In this document: positions 2,754 to 17,152 of the stretch, piece by piece
Layout: each line of letters begins with the position of its first letter
Position numbering within the stretch: position 1 is the first letter of the stretch
Virus record (IMG/VR): IMGVR_UViG_3300020411_003532
Coordinates: 1 to 24,773 of that record
DNA from: a virus
Reading direction: 5' to 3' (one strand)
DNA length: 24,773 nucleotides
The notes under the pieces: generated by a model
What the model was told of the DNA's origin: nothing
The model's input: only the letters and a program-made list of their open reading frames with translations
Database searches by the model: none
Position numbers and translations under genes: made by a program

Positions 2754-3176
2754 TTACTTTAATTGATTCCACTTTTGACCTGCCAAACTAAACAAACCGC
2801 TGATATCTACGCCTGAATCGTTAGGGTCCCTACCAGCCATAGGACCATGAGGTGATGCAGGCTTACCAGGCTCACCCCCCGAGCGAAGAGGCTGTGTTCC
2901 TTCGAAAACATTTGCCATTCTTTCTCCACCAATAGCATCAAGCATCTTTCTTTTAGTTTCAAGAAGCTTCTTACGATGTTCTTCTTCTCTTTCTTCATTG
3001 AGTTTCTGCTGGATTTGAGGGGAGGGCTTCTGAGGTGCTTGTTGTTCAAGCATTACACTTTGCGCTTTGGTCAAACCGAACGCTACCTCTGCTATTATCT
3101 CCGAGAGAACACCCTCTTCGAAGAGTGCTTCTTTAACACACTCTTTAATCATTGCTTTTAATTCTGAACGTTTCAT
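2754..3176 (-). CDS. Uncharacterised 140-residue head-operon protein
   Basis: I do not recognise a family. Residues 1-35 form a likely helix starting MKRSELKAMIKECVKEAL, followed by a Gln/Pro linker (about 44-56), a charged helix (58-82) and a Gly/Pro-rich, probably disordered region up to residue 122. It ends in a short hydrophobic motif (DISGLFSLAGQKWNQLK). The architecture of helices joined by flexible linkers, and the position between protease and scaffold genes, would suit a minor prohead-core or assembly protein, comparable in place to T4 gp67/gp68. That is inference. The start codon overlaps the stop of the sulfotransferase gene (ATGA), implying coupled translation. The N-terminal R-x-L-K-x-x-I-K-E pattern recurs in the protein at 14951-15121. 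Confidence 0.72.
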   Translation of the reverse strand: MKRSELKAMIKECVKEALFEEGVLSEIIAEVAFGLTKAQSVMLEQQAPQKPSPQIQQKLNEEREEEHRKKLLETKRKMLDAIGGERMANVFEGTQPLRSGGEPGKPASPHGPMAGRDPNDSGVDISGLFSLAGQKWNQLK

Positions 3177-3826
3177 AACTCACTCTCGTAAAAATCAAAG
3201 TCTCTCTTATAAAAAGTATAAAATTTATTTTTTAGTCTCGAAGAAGTGCTTAAAATGTTAAATAATTCTTCTTTTGTCTGTTCTTTGGACCCATGTTGGT
3301 TGTTTATGTTGGCATGCTCGATATAGAGATTCTCTGTTTCTATATTGTATTTTTCGGCGAACCTAAACACTTCTTGCTTAAAATTTTCACACCTAAACAC
3401 ATCAGTTTGCTCATTGATCCAAAAAAACTGCGACCTAAACATCTTGTCTAGTTTACTGCTATCGCTCTCAAATCTAAGATGATCTACTTTACTTGTTCCC
3501 ATGATCTTATTATCTTCTAGATAATCAATAACTTCCTCCATTGAAAGTTGGTGTATAATATTTTCTGTGTCTTTGTGTGTTCTCTTTCGCCACCTATAAA
3601 CACTAACAAATCTATCTATCGGGTTTCGAAAAAAACAAAAATACTTTTGGTTCTCAAACCCAGGCAATTTAGAAGCTTGGGTAGCTGTTAGATGACTGTT
3701 TGCAGCACTGAGTCCAAAAAATATTTTTAAGCATGAGCATCCATAATTTTTTGGTATGTGTATAAACGTTAAGTTTTCGTTTAGTGTTTGTTTCTGTAAT
3801 TTTTCTACAAGTCTATTTTCTAGCAC
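3173..3826 (-). CDS. Sulfotransferase (Sulfotransfer_2-like)
   Basis: This 217-residue protein looks like a PAPS-dependent sulfotransferase, which moves a sulfo group from 3'-phosphoadenylyl sulfate to an acceptor, usually a sugar hydroxyl in this family. The 5'-phosphosulfate-binding loop is FIHIPKNYGCSC (residues 21-32, compare HIPKTAGTS). The 3'-phosphate motif is FFRNPIDRFVSVYRW (65-79), with R67, N68, P69 and D71. FFWINEQTDVFRCENF (134-149) matches the later conserved Q...V.R.E region. No signal peptide or membrane anchor is seen, unlike Golgi enzymes, so it should act in the cytoplasm. The start is GTG at 3826 with AAAGGTG just upstream. The gene is visibly more AT-rich than the protease gene before it and is wedged into the head operon, suggesting acquisition. 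The acceptor is unknown. Confidence 0.85.
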   Translation of the reverse strand: MLENRLVEKLQKQTLNENLTFIHIPKNYGCSCLKIFFGLSAANSHLTATQASKLPGFENQKYFCFFRNPIDRFVSVYRWRKRTHKDTENIIHQLSMEEVIDYLEDNKIMGTSKVDHLRFESDSSKLDKMFRSQFFWINEQTDVFRCENFKQEVFRFAEKYNIETENLYIEHANINNQHGSKEQTKEELFNILSTSSRLKNKFYTFYKRDFDFYESEL

Positions 3827-10736: not shown

Positions 10737-11189
10737 TTACTTCACCGCAAACACAATTGCCAATGTTGATAACACCCCAACAGCAATTCCACCAGTTGCC
10801 CACCAAATTGAATAATTCCCGGGTCTTTTTAGTGCAGCTGTTTCCAGCTTCTTAATTTCTTCATTCTTAATCGAAAGGATGTTGTCGGTCTCTTTCTTGA
10901 GTGTGACCAATCTTAACTCTAGGTTCTTAACTTTCAAAGAATACTTTGCTCGCTCTTGCTCTACTGCTTTCTGTATTGCTAAGTTGCGAGCCTCTTCCAT
11001 TGTATCAATCCTTGCTTTAATCATAGCAAAAGCAGGATCATCAAAACACCAAGCGTCAAACGGCGAAGGGTTCCCCTCTAACAGTCTAGTATACCTGCCC
11101 CTTTGTTCTTGTGCATACAGTGAAAGGGGTATAAAACTAATCAATAAAAACAAAGCCAAAGCTTTTTTCAATCTCAGCCTTGATAACAT
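10737..11189 (-). CDS. Secreted coiled-coil protein with C-terminal membrane segment (spanin-like partner?)
   Basis: I chose ATG at 11189, giving 150 residues, because GGAGAA sits six bases upstream; an upstream in-frame start would add nine residues without a good ribosome site. Residues 1-27 look like a signal peptide: basic RLRLKK, hydrophobic ALALFLLISFIPL, then SLYA|QEQ. No lipobox cysteine is present. The segment TRLLEGNPSPFDAWCFDDPAFA follows, then a coiled coil (about 60-118) and a final hydrophobic span IWWATGGIAVGVLSTLAIVFAV before a terminal Lys. The protein should be periplasmic and held by its C-terminus in the inner membrane. Its start lies inside the preceding coiled-coil gene (53-base overlap), reminiscent of nested spanin genes, but without the lipoprotein feature of a normal o-spanin. 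Confidence 0.78.
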   Translation of the reverse strand: MLSRLRLKKALALFLLISFIPLSLYAQEQRGRYTRLLEGNPSPFDAWCFDDPAFAMIKARIDTMEEARNLAIQKAVEQERAKYSLKVKNLELRLVTLKKETDNILSIKNEEIKKLETAALKRPGNYSIWWATGGIAVGVLSTLAIVFAVK

Positions 11190-11541
11190 CCGGTTCTCCT
11201 TTAGACTTTCTAACAATCTCTTTAATTTTTCTCTTTTCTTTTGCTTTCAGTTTCTTTTTCTGTTCTTCATATTTCTTTTCAATGGCAGAAACTGTTTCAT
11301 GGTATTGTCTTATAAGTCGATCTCTCTCCATAATCTCATTATTGTGACGAGTTTTTAACTCATTTATTTGTTTTTCATAAGATTCCTTTTTTGCGTTCAT
11401 GACTTCCACCAAAGCATCAGTGTTTCTCTTTGAAAGGATGTATACTATAATACTCCAAATTATAAGAACTGGTACCTGCCAATATGTCTTAAGCCAAAGC
11501 CAACAGGATGTAAGAGATCTTTTAATAACTATCCAACTCAT
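11137..11541 (-). CDS. Inner-membrane coiled-coil protein (i-spanin-like)
   Basis: I take ATG at 11541 as the start (134 residues), since it overlaps the stop of the holin-like gene as ATGA; a GTG 24 bases upstream is possible but would extend into that gene. Residues about 21-37 (VPVLIIWSIIVYILSKR) form one membrane span preceded by basic and aromatic residues. From about 40 to 118 the chain is a highly charged coiled coil, ending in a short conserved-looking FGFVFID. A single N-terminal span followed by a coiled coil is the layout of i-spanins (Rz type), which link inner to outer membrane at lysis. No endolysin is visible in the window, so the lysis role rests on topology and neighbours. 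Confidence 0.75.
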   Translation of the reverse strand: MSWIVIKRSLTSCWLWLKTYWQVPVLIIWSIIVYILSKRNTDALVEVMNAKKESYEKQINELKTRHNNEIMERDRLIRQYHETVSAIEKKYEEQKKKLKAKEKRKIKEIVRKSKGEPDVIKAEIEKSFGFVFID

Positions 11542-11744
11542 TTGTCTGATGGTCCGTGTTTCCACTTAACTGCTAAATCAACCAGCGCCTGGGAACCAAT
11601 GTAAGCTAGAGTAACTGCAACCCAGTCGCTGCTTGTTACTGTCCCATATACGCACAAGCCGGTTGCTGTAATCCATGCGAGAAACTTTCTTGATATAAAC
11701 CTTTCTGTATATTTGTCTGCAAATGCTTTTATTGCTGTCACCAT
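11538..11744 (-). CDS. Small holin-like membrane protein
   Basis: This 68-residue protein has a charged N-terminus (residues 1-20), two hydrophobic stretches (about 22-38, FLAWITATGLCVYGTV, and 42-58, WVAVTLAYIGSQALVDL) and a basic tail HGPSDK. Size and two-span topology resemble class II holins and small phage membrane proteins often annotated as holins, which open the inner membrane at lysis time. The start is supported by AGGAGG eight bases before ATG, and the gene begins 9 bases after the Mre11-Rad50 fusion. The stop overlaps the start of the inner-membrane coiled-coil gene, so the two are coupled. The holin assignment is by topology only. Confidence 0.68.
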   Translation of the reverse strand: MVTAIKAFADKYTERFISRKFLAWITATGLCVYGTVTSSDWVAVTLAYIGSQALVDLAVKWKHGPSDK

Positions 11745-11753
11745 AAAACCCTC

Positions 11754-14700
11754 CTAAATATTTACGTATGCAAATCCATCTTTTCTTTCGATGTTAATTT
11801 GCATATCAACACAGTCCTTTAAACTATCTAGATGCGAGATAAGAATAACTGTTTTAAAGTAACCCTTTATCATATCTAATATTCTGACAAAGCCTTCCAT
11901 ATTTTCTTCATCTAAGGCTGTGCCAGGCTCATCTAATATAAATAGGTCCGACTTTGGCAAACTTGAAACCGTAAGAAAAGCTAGGCGTATTGCCATGGCG
12001 GCAATAGTCTTTTCTGCTCCCGAGCCCATCTCTAATGGCCTTGCATCGTGCTTTGGGTGCTTAATAAGAATATCAAGCTTGTCATCTGCATTCGTAATGA
12101 ACACCTCGAAGTCAACAATGTTTGTAAGTATCTTGGCGATCTCTTGATTGATAAACGGTAATCTCTCTTTAATAATCTCATAAGATACACCGTTTGGATG
12201 ACAGCAAGTCATAAGTAGATGATATGCAGCAAAGTCATCCTTGAGTGTTTCGTATTCTTCAAAGCCCTCTTCCAAGTGCCTGAGCTTTTGTTCTAGTGAG
12301 CCATGCCTCTTGTGTAGGGCCATAATCTTGTTTTCACAATCTTGAAGCTTTGATTCGCACTTTCTAATAAAAACTTTCTTTTCATCTCGCAATGCGATTA
12401 AATCTTTAAGATTCTCAATTGCATCTTTGTTTTGTTCATATTCAAAGCTCTTGCTCTTAAGTTCTTGAAGCTCAACCTGCTCTTTAAACAATGAGCTTTC
12501 TGCCTTTTCAATAAACAATTTATTGTTAGCAATGCTTGTAGCTAAAACGTTTCGCTTCTCAAGGAGAAGATTATATTTGTCTATATGGCTTTCAATGGTA
12601 TCTGGATCCTCTTTTCTTAGGTCTTCTCCCGCTTTATTTACATCTCTTGAAAAAGTAGATATCTTGGACTCACAAATTTGAATAAGCTCACCTGCTTGAT
12701 GTGCATCTTTAATAAATTTACAAGATGGAAATTGAGAACCGCACGGCACTTCTCGTAATAGATCTTGCTTCTTTAAATTTCTATCTCTTTCTTCGCTTTG
12801 TAGCTTAATGCTGTGGATGAGTTCATCTATCTTTTTCTTATTCTGGGTGATAAGTTCTTTCTTTTGCATATATGATGCGATATCAAACTTCTCTACAAAG
12901 CTTGCAATCTTTTCGTACTTGTCCTCACTCAGCCTAAGTTCTTCTATGGATTTTGTTTTTTTAGAAGTAATATCAAGAATTGTCTTTTCTTTTATTCTGA
13001 TAGCTCGCGAAGTCATCACAGGGTCAATAATCTCAGCTGGTACTGATTCAATTTTTGCTTCTACTGCTAGCAGTTCTTTGTTGGTATCAGATATAGTGCC
13101 CCTGATATCAGAACATGATGCTTTGTTTGATTCTATACCCAGTTCGCTTTTTGTAATATCTCTTTTGACTTCAGCTATTTGCGTCTCAAAATCGATACCC
13201 TCTAACCTCTTCAATGCCGCTTTAGTCATAGCAGAATCTTCTTTTGCCATCTTAAACTTCTTATCAAAGATTTGTAGGTCAAGAAACTTGGCCAAGAACT
13301 CTTTACGCTTAGTCGAACCCTCGTTGATAAATGATAGTGAATCAAGCTGACTGGCCATAGAGGTCATAAGAAAATCATTTAGTGTTCCAAAATACTTTCT
13401 TACATTCTTGTCGGTATCCTGCCTAGATGTCCCGTTAAGCCCTTCTACGTTCCCTGTAAGGTCTTTTCTATAGAACTCAAGGTCAGTGCTAGCCTCTAGA
13501 GTTTCAACGCCCTTCAGGCGCTTTGTATATTTCTCAGAAACTCTCTCTATAACATATTCGTTGTCATCAATCTTTATGGTCGCAGCTGCCCTACAACCAT
13601 CTCGATTCTGATTAATGATGTTTAGATTCTTTCTAATAGATTTACTAGTGGAGTTGTAGAGAGAATATAGTAAAGTATCTACAATAGAGGACTTACCTGA
13701 ATAGTTCTTGCCGAAAATGCCTACAATGCCCTCTAACTTGGTGAAGTCAACGTTATTGCCATCGCCGTAGTTAAATAGGTTATCCCATTCTAAGCTCTGC
13801 AAGGACCAGTGTACATTCCTCAGCACGTCTTCATCTTCTTCGATTTGAACATTGTATTTTTTGTTTAGTTCATATACCTTAGTCATCACTTCATCAGTAA
13901 CATCATATTCCTTTAGGTATTCTTGCATAAGCGTTTCTTGTGTTTTAAGGTCGCGAAGGTCTTGTTTCTTCAGTCCTTTGGGTGCTTGGACTGTTATCTG
14001 CTTACCAGCTGCCCTATTAAGATAAGTCACAGACTCTGGCTTATATTTGTACTTTACAATATCTACCGCTTTTCTTACCTTATCGAGAGTTACATTTTCA
14101 TCAGAAACAATTCGAAGCCTTGCGCCCTCTGGTGGTTTCTTTCTTGGTAGGTTTCCTGCCTTTGTCAACTCTAATGTAACGAACGGCTTTGGATTGTTAA
14201 AAGTGATAAGCCTATTAGCAAACTCATCCTTGCTTTCAATGTCCCACAATAGATAGCCTTTATCCAAGGACTCGCCAAAGTTCTGCTGGACTGTGGAGCC
14301 AGCGTACCAAATGCGGCCTTCTTTATCTAGTTTTTGTGTTTTGTGAATATCACCAAGAAAAGCAAAATCAAAGTTATCGAAAATCCCAATGTCATGGTCA
14401 CCTCCTAATGTCCAGTTGCTATCTGTTTTTGACTTATTGATCGCGCCGTGATACAGGGCAATGTTAACTGCCTCTGTATCTGATGGGTCGGACCAGTTAT
14501 CCTCATCAAAGACTGACAGGACGTTTAGGCAGAATTGTTCATTTAATCTAACTTCGCCGGCTTCCTTAATAAGGATTAGTCTTGGAGAGTTTATTGCTCT
14601 GACAATAGGAGACAGTGCATCCTGCCTACTGCCGTTTCTTAGATTGCCATCGTGGTTCCCTAGGATAATATATGTTGGGGCAATCTCTGCCAAACTCTCA

Positions 14701-14891
14701 AAGAACTCGCGACACATATCCACAAACTCTGGTGATATTTGTGTTTTGGTGTGTGCGATATCTCCGCAGTGAATGATATAATCTACTTTTTCTTCTTTTA
14801 GTGATTTATATAATTGCTTGAATACTTCTCTATATTCAAAGTGATATTTTAAGTTACGGATGTGTGTATCCGCAATATGAGCAAATCTCAT
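11754..14891 (-). CDS. Mre11-Rad50 (SbcD-SbcC; T4 gp47-gp46) single-chain fusion
   Basis: The 1045-residue chain joins both subunits of the DNA end-processing complex used in phage recombination and recombination-dependent replication. The Mre11 nuclease part (about 1-345) has metal-binding motifs D8-x-H10 (IADTH), GD at 43-44, GNHD at 78-81, H149 and GDIH (180-183). The Rad50 ATPase part (about 360-1045) has Walker A GKNYSGKS (394-401), a long coiled coil broken by a hook-like CGSQFPSC (C717, C724; six residues between the cysteines rather than two), signature MGSGAEK (955-961), Walker B DLFILDEPGTALD (982-994) and an H-loop at H1020. In T4 these are separate genes 47 and 46. No stop or frameshift separates the halves. 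GGAGG precedes ATG, and a sigma70-type promoter lies just upstream. Confidence 0.95.
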   Translation of the reverse strand: MRFAHIADTHIRNLKYHFEYREVFKQLYKSLKEEKVDYIIHCGDIAHTKTQISPEFVDMCREFFESLAEIAPTYIILGNHDGNLRNGSRQDALSPIVRAINSPRLILIKEAGEVRLNEQFCLNVLSVFDEDNWSDPSDTEAVNIALYHGAINKSKTDSNWTLGGDHDIGIFDNFDFAFLGDIHKTQKLDKEGRIWYAGSTVQQNFGESLDKGYLLWDIESKDEFANRLITFNNPKPFVTLELTKAGNLPRKKPPEGARLRIVSDENVTLDKVRKAVDIVKYKYKPESVTYLNRAAGKQITVQAPKGLKKQDLRDLKTQETLMQEYLKEYDVTDEVMTKVYELNKKYNVQIEEDEDVLRNVHWSLQSLEWDNLFNYGDGNNVDFTKLEGIVGIFGKNYSGKSSIVDTLLYSLYNSTSKSIRKNLNIINQNRDGCRAAATIKIDDNEYVIERVSEKYTKRLKGVETLEASTDLEFYRKDLTGNVEGLNGTSRQDTDKNVRKYFGTLNDFLMTSMASQLDSLSFINEGSTKRKEFLAKFLDLQIFDKKFKMAKEDSAMTKAALKRLEGIDFETQIAEVKRDITKSELGIESNKASCSDIRGTISDTNKELLAVEAKIESVPAEIIDPVMTSRAIRIKEKTILDITSKKTKSIEELRLSEDKYEKIASFVEKFDIASYMQKKELITQNKKKIDELIHSIKLQSEERDRNLKKQDLLREVPCGSQFPSCKFIKDAHQAGELIQICESKISTFSRDVNKAGEDLRKEDPDTIESHIDKYNLLLEKRNVLATSIANNKLFIEKAESSLFKEQVELQELKSKSFEYEQNKDAIENLKDLIALRDEKKVFIRKCESKLQDCENKIMALHKRHGSLEQKLRHLEEGFEEYETLKDDFAAYHLLMTCCHPNGVSYEIIKERLPFINQEIAKILTNIVDFEVFITNADDKLDILIKHPKHDARPLEMGSGAEKTIAAMAIRLAFLTVSSLPKSDLFILDEPGTALDEENMEGFVRILDMIKGYFKTVILISHLDSLKDCVDMQINIERKDGFAYVNI

Positions 14892-14921
14892 TTATCCTCC
14901 GATAATCGTTATTGTAGGACT

Positions 14922-15131: not shown

Positions 15132-16049
15132 TCAAAAGTCAAGTTTATATTCTAAATAGTTTAAATCTGTTATAAAGTCAGCATTTTGTTTTCTGGTCAA
15201 AAACTCATCTCGTGGCATCTCTGCAAGGTCTGAATATGGATTTACTGGGATGCTCTTACAAGCAACTCCATATTCACGAAACTTCTTTGCTATGTAAAAC
15301 TCTTTGCTTTTCGCATCCTCGTCAAGAGCAAGGAATACCTCACGTTTGCTCCGACATATCTTTTGGAATAGTTTGTGATTCTCTCGCAAGCTAGACCCAA
15401 GAATGGGAATGCAGTTTTTGTGTCGTATTGCATCGAACGCTCCTTCTACAATTACTATATCATCATCCCAATCAATATTTAAATCGTTAAATACTAAGTC
15501 CTTACTTGCTCTAGGGTTTTTGTATTTCATCCAGTCATCAGTGTAAGAGCGAGCAACAAAATAGTTTAGCTGACCTTTTCTATTGAAAGACGGGATGATT
15601 ACCCTACCCTGATACTCGCCAAAGTCGCAAAAGCCTATCTTCCATCGAAGAATATCTAAGTCTGTGATATCTCTGGAGTACAAATACTCTAGTGCTTTTT
15701 TCTTATCGCCAGTCTTGGGGCCTGTAAGTGATTTAAATTCTTGTGGAAAATTGATTACCTGGTCTGGTAATTCCCCTGGTTCATCAAAAATGAACTCGTA
15801 CTTTGATAAATCAACCTCTTCTGCTATGTTGGACCATTCGGCGTAATACTCTGGGGCGTGCTTGCTAACAAGATAAGAAATTTTATTGCCTGAGTATCCA
15901 CAAATCCAACACTTAAAGGCGTTTTTGTCGATATTAACAGACATTTTCTTTTTATCGTGGTCACACTTAGGGCAATGAAAAAGCATCTCACCGCCGCTAA
16001 ACCATGGTTTTCCAAAGGCTTTTTTAAGTATTTCCCTCTTCTCGTGCAA
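15132..16049 (-). CDS. 61: DNA primase, DnaG/gp61-type
   Basis: This 305-residue primase synthesises RNA primers for lagging-strand replication. The N-terminal CHC2-type zinc-binding domain has C26-x-x-C29 (FHCPKC) and C47-x-x-C50 (FKCWICGYSG). A linker with LEYLYSRDITD and LRWKIGFCDF (typical of primase cores) leads to the TOPRIM domain with catalytic E202 (IVIVEGAFDAIRH) and the D-x-D at D243/D245 (FLALDEDA). It is close in length to T4 gp61 (342), and no helicase domain is attached. The start is TTG at 16049 with GGGGA five bases upstream, inside the end of the RuvC-like gene (26-base overlap). No ATG lies near enough to keep the zinc domain whole. Its partner helicase is not in the window. 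Confidence 0.93.
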   Translation of the reverse strand: MHEKREILKKAFGKPWFSGGEMLFHCPKCDHDKKKMSVNIDKNAFKCWICGYSGNKISYLVSKHAPEYYAEWSNIAEEVDLSKYEFIFDEPGELPDQVINFPQEFKSLTGPKTGDKKKALEYLYSRDITDLDILRWKIGFCDFGEYQGRVIIPSFNRKGQLNYFVARSYTDDWMKYKNPRASKDLVFNDLNIDWDDDIVIVEGAFDAIRHKNCIPILGSSLRENHKLFQKICRSKREVFLALDEDAKSKEFYIAKKFREYGVACKSIPVNPYSDLAEMPRDEFLTRKQNADFITDLNYLEYKLDF

Positions 16050-16575
16050 TTTTGTCCCCTGCCAAAGCTATAATAATACTATCGCACATATCCAACATTC
16101 CTGGTTTTGGATTTCCATGCTTCGTATATATTATCTCAATTTGGGGGTAGTTGTCAATAACAAACTGCAAAACTTTTTCCTTGGCGTTATCGCCTCGTTT
16201 GATGCCGACGCCCGCTTGTTTTCTGGCCGATGTGGCGGCAATCATTTTGGGCTGGAGGTCGAACATCTCATAACACAACCACGACACTATACCATTAAAT
16301 CGAGACAAAGTCGATAGTGTTTGTGCAGATGAGAAACCTGAGCGGAAAGAGTGGAGCGACTGCTCTATGTAGATATCTGATATATCATACCACTTTTTAA
16401 GTTTGTCCAAATTCTCACGAATTAAAGCTGCTTTATCGTATAGAGATGGAAATTTGTTTTTATTTCTAGTGTCCCAGAAGAAACTTTCTTTTATTTTACC
16501 ATCTTGGATTATTGTTGCACCAGTTATGGAAGTTGAAACATCAAGTCCCAGCGTGCATTTGTTGTAGTTTTTCAA
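16024..16575 (-). CDS. RuvC-like Holliday-junction resolvase / RNase H-fold nuclease
   Basis: This 183-residue protein has the RuvC-type RNase H fold: LGLDVSTSITGATII with catalytic D12 (residues 9-23), IYIEQSL with E71 (69-75), and the C-terminal LDMCDSIIIALA with D162 and D165 (161-172). AGVGIKRGDNAKEKVL (121-136) corresponds to the basic segment before the last acidic motif. Such enzymes cut four-way or branched DNA, needed before packaging. T4 instead uses endonuclease VII (gp49). The start is TTG at 16575; an in-frame stop three codons upstream (TGA GTA AAT ATA TTG) leaves little alternative, though the ribosome site is weak. It overlaps the J-domain gene by 35 bases and primase by 26, implying coupled translation. 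Confidence 0.85.
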   Translation of the reverse strand: MKNYNKCTLGLDVSTSITGATIIQDGKIKESFFWDTRNKNKFPSLYDKAALIRENLDKLKKWYDISDIYIEQSLHSFRSGFSSAQTLSTLSRFNGIVSWLCYEMFDLQPKMIAATSARKQAGVGIKRGDNAKEKVLQFVIDNYPQIEIIYTKHGNPKPGMLDMCDSIIIALAGDKIAREEGNT

Positions 16576-17152
16576 TATATTTACTCATCAAGAACTCTCT
16601 GGCTTCTTCGTCAGCGTAATACCAGCTCCACAAAACAGAGTTCTGTGTTTCTTTTATTTTTTTCTCTAAGTCGCCATTGGTCTTTTTCATCATTTCGATC
16701 TGCTTCTCGTTAGGCGGAGGCGGCTTGATTCCAAGCTCTTCCGCCACTTCAACTATACCATAATAATCGTTTACCTCTAAAGACATTCTTGCTTTTTCAA
16801 ACAAACTCTTTTTGTATTCTTTTTCAAATTGAGGCAACTTTTCAAGCTTATCCGGGTGTATTTTTAGTGCTATTTTTCTAAAGACTGTTTTTAGGTTTTC
16901 GTCTTTTTGTTCTTTTTTTGCTTCTACTATTTCACCACCTGTTTCAAACTTGACTTTTGAATTTTTATCTACTTTTTCAACTTCTTGTTTTTTTGTTATT
17001 TCTTCTTGTTTTTCGGGATACCCTAATTTATTTGATAAACTTTTAGAAAATAATGGCTGAGCTTTTGCCATTAGTTTTTCGGTCATCTCAAGGGTGTTTT
17101 TAAGGTATTTATTTCTTATTATTAAGAGTTCATATTTTCCATCAAGATGCAC
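16541..17152 (-). CDS. J-domain (DnaJ-like) protein
   Basis: The 203-residue protein carries a J-domain-like helix-HPD-helix unit at about residues 86-140: LKTVFRKIALKIHPDKLEKL, with HPD at 99-101, followed by FEKEYKKSLFEKARMSLEVND. In J-proteins the HPD loop stimulates the ATPase of an Hsp70 such as DnaK. The N-terminal 80 residues are charged and helical. The C-terminus has a tryptophan/aromatic segment SVLWSWYYADEEAREFLM (172-189). There are no G/F-rich or zinc domains of full DnaJ. The start is GTG at 17152, one base after the stop of the 400-residue structural gene. It may recruit host DnaK for virion assembly or for remodelling replication complexes; the neighbours allow either. Confidence 0.82.
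   Translation of the reverse strand: MHLDGKYELLIIRNKYLKNTLEMTEKLMAKAQPLFSKSLSNKLGYPEKQEEITKKQEVEKVDKNSKVKFETGGEIVEAKKEQKDENLKTVFRKIALKIHPDKLEKLPQFEKEYKKSLFEKARMSLEVNDYYGIVEVAEELGIKPPPPNEKQIEMMKKTNGDLEKKIKETQNSVLWSWYYADEEAREFLMSKYIEKLQQMHAGT

Follow-up and report, generated by a model that had tools for sequence, protein, structure and literature searches.

Does the marine phage locus studied here encode the Mre11 nuclease and the Rad50 ATPase as one genuine chain and, if so, what would that chain do and what is to be made of its unusual hook? The window, by which we mean the whole stretch of viral DNA analyzed (24,773 nucleotides, IMG/VR record IMGVR_UViG_3300020411_003532), is T4-like, with a terminase, a gp20 portal and a gp21 protease recognized by Pfam and PHROGs. 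On its minus strand a frame running from 14891 to 11754 stays open for 1045 codons plus a stop, and its ATG start, as read from the sequence, is preceded by GGAGG. The initial annotation had described Mre11 and Rad50 in one uninterrupted frame of 1045 residues, leaving the strand unstated, and this description stands. The gene is laid out as follows.

11754..14891, minus strand: fused Mre11-Rad50 gene, 1045 amino acids plus stop (open frame; Pfam and PHROG domains; 156 single-frame relatives)
14896..14900, minus strand: GGAGG ribosome-binding site of the fusion gene (sequence upstream of the ATG)
14016..14891, minus strand: residues 1-292, Mre11/SbcD nuclease core and capping region (Pfam Metallophos, phrog_100; Foldseek 3thn, 7dog_B)
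13833..13949, minus strand: residues 315-353, helix-loop-helix, putative Rad50-binding element of Mre11 (AlphaFold2 secondary structure; analogy to T. maritima, PMC3175470)
13809..13832, minus strand: residues 354-361, junction or linker, constant in length in nearly the whole family (junction alignment; model)
13275..13808, minus strand: residues 362-539, N-terminal half of the Rad50 ATPase, with Walker A at 394-402 and Q-loop Q515 (domains, motifs, model)
12750..13274, minus strand: residues 540-714, ascending coiled coil, with a break at 616-623 and invariant P618 (conservation; model)
12720..12743, minus strand: residues 717-724, hook CGSQFPSC, C-x6-C (sequence)
12201..12719, minus strand: residues 725-897, descending coiled coil, with a break at 819-827 (model)
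11757..12191, minus strand: residues 901-1045, C-terminal half of the Rad50 ATPase, with signature SGAE, Walker B and H-loop (conservation; model)

Both parts of the protein were recognized in domain searches. Pfam returned Metallophos at residues 1-183 (6.7e-14) together with AAA_23 at 367-605 and SMC_N, the last two of Rad50 type, and PHROGs placed the SbcD family (phrog_100) at 1-340 (2e-34) and the SbcC family at 301-1044 (9e-56). The Rad50, SbcC and SbcD models of NCBIfam were among the top matches, all far under their curated cut-offs, and the protein is thus a divergent member. Its closest solved chains by sequence were archaeal Rad50, with bacterial and archaeal Mre11/SbcD lower in the list. 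The nuclease part has the motifs and fold of a calcineurin-like phosphoesterase, as in Mre11/SbcD, and the remainder is a split ABC ATPase around a coiled coil with Walker A, Q-loop, signature, Walker B and H-loop, as in Rad50/SbcC.

An AlphaFold2 model built with 51 family members (mean pLDDT 80.2, pTM 0.45) arranges the parts as expected, from the Mre11 core and helix pair to the heads, coil and hook; the mutual placement of the domains is uncertain given the pTM. The two helices span 315-329 and 333-353 and the first strand of Rad50 begins at 362, which puts the linker at 354-361. This is close to the 345-365 proposed from the sequence by the initial annotation, whose placement of the linker near the base of the Rad50 coiled coil is likewise supported, and the geometry of the fusion is compatible with T. 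maritima Mre11/Rad50 (PMC3175470). The protein thus has Mre11 followed by Rad50 in one frame, with a capping and helix-loop-helix region and a short linker, as in R555-like fusions. In Foldseek, the model matched solved Rad50 chains (7zr1, 5dny, 3av0) and Mre11 chains (3thn, 7dog), the top structural match being a Mre11-Rad50 complex.

We then asked whether the fusion is genuine. A scan of IMG/VR gave at least 585 confirmed relatives, and among the best 80 that were kept, 77 were full-length in one frame and the other three were cut by contig ends. The homologue of Microcystis phage Mel-JY01 is also full-length in a single frame, and after three further scans the count stood at no fewer than 156 distinct full-length single-frame sequences besides the window protein, from many samples. 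That an assembly error or a missed stop or frameshift joined two genes, which are indeed separate in T4-like relatives such as T4, Syn1 and HTVC008M, is almost certainly wrong and can be considered refuted, since these 156 other sequences share a single frame and a conserved junction.

It is also very unlikely that, beside the fusion, a free Rad50 half arises by internal initiation or proteolysis. The Met at residue 336 is shared by 34 of 79 rows and a TTG at codon 364 has AGGA upstream, as such initiation might use, but none of the start codons at the junction is conserved or has a convincing ribosome-binding site, and there is no conserved Met. Residues 318-402 are free of indels in 64 of 65 dereplicated rows, and conservation averages ~77-82% over residues 351-400, on par with the heads, which argues against two separately made halves.

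The catalytic motifs were largely as anticipated. On the nuclease side, D8/H10, G43-D44, N79-H80-D81, H148 and H183 are present; on the ATPase side, Walker A GKNYSGKSS (394-402), Q515, SGAE (957-960), Walker B D987-E988 and H1020 were found, and in the alignment all of these are invariant or almost so across the family. The Walker A, hook cysteines, signature, Walker B and H-loop of Rad50 listed by the initial annotation were thus all located in the frame. Its further statement that all metal-binding motifs of Mre11 are present holds for most of them, but not for two positions: the GDxxD motif reads GDIAH, its last Asp being replaced by His, and the position of P. furiosus His206 is occupied by Asp (GDIH for GHxH). 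Both changes occur in 79 of 79 family rows, so that the canonical set of metal ligands including His206 (GHxH) is incomplete throughout, with GDIH in every row. An Asp at the His206 position could still bind metal, although metal binding and the mode of nuclease action may differ because of it.

The same two replacements are known from Mimivirus R555, where His takes the place of the third Asp in DXH..GDXXD..GNHD/E and Asp that of His206 (PMC3175470). Yoshida, Claverie and Ogata described Mre11/Rad50 fusions in 2011 in Mimivirus R555, eukaryotes, bacteria, plasmids and a Bacillus phage, as well as abundant marine (GOS) homologues of R555, many of which they argued to be of phage origin (PMC3175470). 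The fusion itself is therefore already published, contrary to the novelty implied by the initial annotation, which was right on the sequence and on the odd hook. Like the window protein, R555 and its GOS homologues have an N-terminal Mre11 and a C-terminal Rad50 in one chain; the GOS homologues are aquatic and phage-associated as well, and the GDxxH and Asp for His206 are shared with R555. The best viral Foldseek matches were full-length DNA repair proteins of Tupanvirus and klosneuvirus-type giant viruses, of the R555 kind and in a fusion-like size range. The separate SbcD homologues of HTVC008M and AG-345-L05 retain GHxH, whereas GDIH was found in all distant fused relatives tested and GDxxH in most of them, and on these motifs the window protein would belong with the R555-like kind. 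This assignment rests on motifs and on fold matches to giant-virus relatives. In contrast to R555, the window protein is shorter (1045 versus 1351 amino acids), with a shorter coil, and sits in a T4-like tailed phage whose relatives carry RecA/UvsX. The hook of the window protein is C-x6-C.

Other phages provide further points of reference. The Mel-JY01 protein (WWT39521.1, 'AAA domain containing protein') is a single fusion of 1066 amino acids, 29% identical over its full length and encoded near a primase gene, but it has an EYDPxCxxC-type hook and its gene does not adjoin the terminase. Listeria phage LMTA-57 (L089:2908-5937) has a fused recombination exonuclease of 1009 amino acids, also in Mre11-Rad50 order in one chain, yet with a GHYH motif and a CPTC hook; as it resembles the separate Herelleviridae genes of Bacillus phage Bobb, this fusion is probably independent. 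T4 shares with the window the nuclease-then-ATPase order, a likely role and the type of terminase, portal and prohead protease, whereas its gp47 and gp46 are two genes with 46.1 and 46.2 between them, and the hook is CPTC. Among annotated phages, the terminase matches that of Flavobacterium phage immuto best, and this phage gave neither an SbcC nor an SbcD match.

The surroundings of the gene bear on its role. A conserved order of RuvC-like gene, primase, fusion, small lysis-like genes, terminase and portal is kept, with few exceptions, across the 80 IMG/VR loci of the first scan as far as the contigs reach, and the primase adjoins the fusion gene in most loci, distant relatives included.

15132..16049, minus strand: DnaG-like primase, conserved upstream neighbor (Pfam, PHROGs, neighborhoods)
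16024..16575, minus strand: RuvC-like Holliday junction resolvase, conserved neighbor (weak family match; neighborhoods)

Several other genes of the window were noted in passing. Directly downstream of the fusion, between it and the terminase, two small genes (11137-11744, minus strand) resemble a lysis cassette, with a membrane-type protein of 68 amino acids (holin-like by eye) and one of 142 amino acids with weak Rz-like spanin and endolysin matches. A sulfotransferase-family protein of 217 amino acids (3173-3826, minus strand; Sulfotransfer_2 just over the cut-off) lies among the head genes and adjoins the gp21 protease, and a protein of 203 amino acids (16541-17152, minus strand) with a weak DnaJ-domain match, under the Pfam cut-off, is kept in many but not all relatives.

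Among 15 long related contigs (95-204 kb), each had one SbcC match, inside the fusion, and the nine of them searched for SbcD each had one match, again inside the fusion; no separate extra SbcC (15 contigs) or SbcD (nine contigs) was found. Of the 15, 13 carry RecA/UvsX, and a DnaB-type helicase was found in 8 of 9 contigs; neither UvsY nor a family-B polymerase turned up in the long related contigs, and the pathway is thus not a copy of that of T4. Among plasmids, no close relatives were found, the only matches being to the Rad50 half at 22-23%. A bacterial genome collection gave eight matches, all in MAGs, some sharing the phage neighborhood and others more distant or partial. In one of these, the 2.85-Mb WOR-3 MAG chromosome CP070664, a 56%-identical fusion (L099:3956-6049), whose similarity ends at residue 622, adjoins phage-type RuvC and primase genes, as in a prophage remnant or a chimeric assembly. 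In LR756508, a phage genome of 484 kb, a 305-amino-acid ORF matching a TnsA-like endonuclease (L084:3665-4582) splits the fused gene directly behind the GDIH active-site motif, a pattern as from a mobile intron or similar insertion.

Our combined findings make it highly probable that the gene product is an R555-like viral Mre11-Rad50 (SbcD-SbcC) in a single chain, which serves a T4-like marine tailed phage in end processing of the gp46/47 type. From the genomic association, the role is likely that of T4 gp46/47, whose part in end resection has been described (PMC3016280), that is, processing DNA ends for recombination-dependent replication. Starting from what is directly seen (the fusion, its motifs, conservation and neighbors, the co-occurrence with RecA/UvsX and helicase, and the hook diversity), we infer the biochemistry, oligomeric state and zinc binding as follows. 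Two fused chains would form an M2R2 particle, in which the helix-loop-helix of each nuclease half would anchor that half at the base of the Rad50 coil, and the fusion would couple nuclease and ATPase one to one. The two ATPase heads would close on ATP and DNA, and the coils would meet at their apex through one cysteine pair per chain, the four thiolates probably coordinating a single zinc. By closing on ATP, the heads would control when the nuclease can trim or open DNA ends, and the processed ends would be 3' single strands for the phage RecA/UvsX recombinase, allowing recombination-dependent replication and break repair as with T4 gp46/47. The coil-plus-hook segment may act as an exchangeable dimerization module.

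It is unlikely that the protein works in attack or counter-defense instead of replication, whether by breaking down the DNA of the host or of rivals or by sensing DNA in the manner of SMC proteins. T4 gp46/47 are annotated as also required in host DNA degradation, and Foldseek also matched JetABC and Lamassu SMC heads, but a Mre11-Rad50 complex ranked above these, the gene adjoins primase and RuvC-like genes in a neighborhood kept across the 80 loci, and it co-occurs with RecA/UvsX.

There remains the hook. Cellular Rad50/SbcC, like the window protein, has two cysteines per chain at the coil apex, in the CXXC form described as conserved across life (PMC9569753), as opposed to C-x6-C here. The cysteines are C717 and C724, with the six intervening residues that had been reported, and the hook was rightly singled out as unusual, since the family alternates among four cysteine-pair designs, of which C-x6-C is one. 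All 157 fused proteins have a cysteine pair at the apex; with types assigned by pattern, C-x6-C accounts for 109 (including the window protein), C-x7-C for 6, the EYDPxCxxC type for 30 and a short CxxC with a shorter loop for 12, so that CxxC is found in 42 of 157. The EYDPxCxxC type is perhaps ancestral, as it is also found in Mel-JY01 and other distant relatives. The separate Rad50s of T4, Syn1, HTVC008M, AG-345-L05, a T5-like Vibrio phage and Bacillus phage Bobb have CPxC hooks, and that of Moorella phage MTATph1 has a C-x7-C hook of different sequence. As a query, the C-x6-C hook segment, so short as to be a weak test, matched no Rad50-annotated phage protein and no plasmid.

In the model the coil runs up through 540-714 and down through 725-897, both arms being broken (616-623 and 819-827) near invariant P618, Y818 and N821. 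Two further cysteines stand out in this otherwise variable coil, ~125-135 residues from the hook on either side.

13113..13115, minus strand: C593, ascending coil, conserved in 62 of 65 dereplicated rows (alignment)
12336..12338, minus strand: C852, descending coil, invariant in 65 of 65 (alignment)

Their similar distance from the hook suggests that they face each other, possibly as a disulfide or metal staple.

How did the designs come to alternate? In heads-only trees, built quickly and without bootstrap from alignments lacking the coil, the hook type changes 8 times among 68 rows, 7 of them forced, and about 18 times among 121 rows, 16 of them forced by supported branches. The heads of L013 (C-x6-C) and L211 (short CxxC) are 96.5% identical, while their loop regions share 14%; L257 and L266 share 96.6% of head residues and have different hooks. 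At residues conserved between both proteins of a pair, the synonymous codon match of L013/L211 was 0.62 in the heads and 0.41 in the coil (p 3e-6, p-values here coming from pairs picked after inspection), and that of L257/L266 was 0.67 and 0.53. Three same-hook control pairs showed no difference between heads and coil (0.70/0.70, 0.62/0.64 and 0.83/0.79), although three other same-hook pairs did (L021/L026, L266/L271 and L064/L073). The lower match in the coil indicates that the coil-plus-hook often has an older history than its heads, as would follow from recombinational exchange, in some cases between segments with the same type of hook. Synonymous sites, as distinct from a formal breakpoint analysis, thus suggest such exchange.

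The hook differences may instead be a product of normal rapid drift in a coil under weak constraint, with no module exchange, a reading we consider possible but doubtful. The coil is the least conserved part in every pair, and same-hook pairs too can diverge strongly there. Nonetheless, drift sits poorly with four discrete designs that keep the cysteine pair in every member, with type changes forced by supported branches, and with a codon match that falls from heads to coil in L013/L211 and stays level in controls.

We put forward, tentatively, that the coil-plus-hook is a cassette swapped by recombination among four designs on nearly constant heads. The hook would decide which chains pair, switching could separate the complexes of co-infecting phages or evade a host factor that targets the hook, and C593/C852 may be a second staple. 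Engineered chimaeras show that Rad50 accepts an SMC hinge in place of its hook (PMC6969161), and such tolerance makes natural exchange plausible. Our literature search, largely outside subscription journals, found no paper on natural Rad50 hook switching; it seems new that the hook design has switched repeatedly while the heads stayed nearly constant.

As a one-gene Mre11-Rad50 of ~120 kDa with a short coil, the protein is convenient for work on structure and mechanism, since nuclease and ATPase come in a set ratio. Should the hook prove to be a module exchanged in nature, the family would supply many natural chimaeras, nearly the same in their heads but unlike in their hooks, and allow a direct test of the standing question whether the hook is only a dimerization module, as the SMC-hinge swap suggests (PMC6969161), or has specific roles or partner specificity. 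CXXC would then not be the sole cysteine-pair design at a Rad50 apex.
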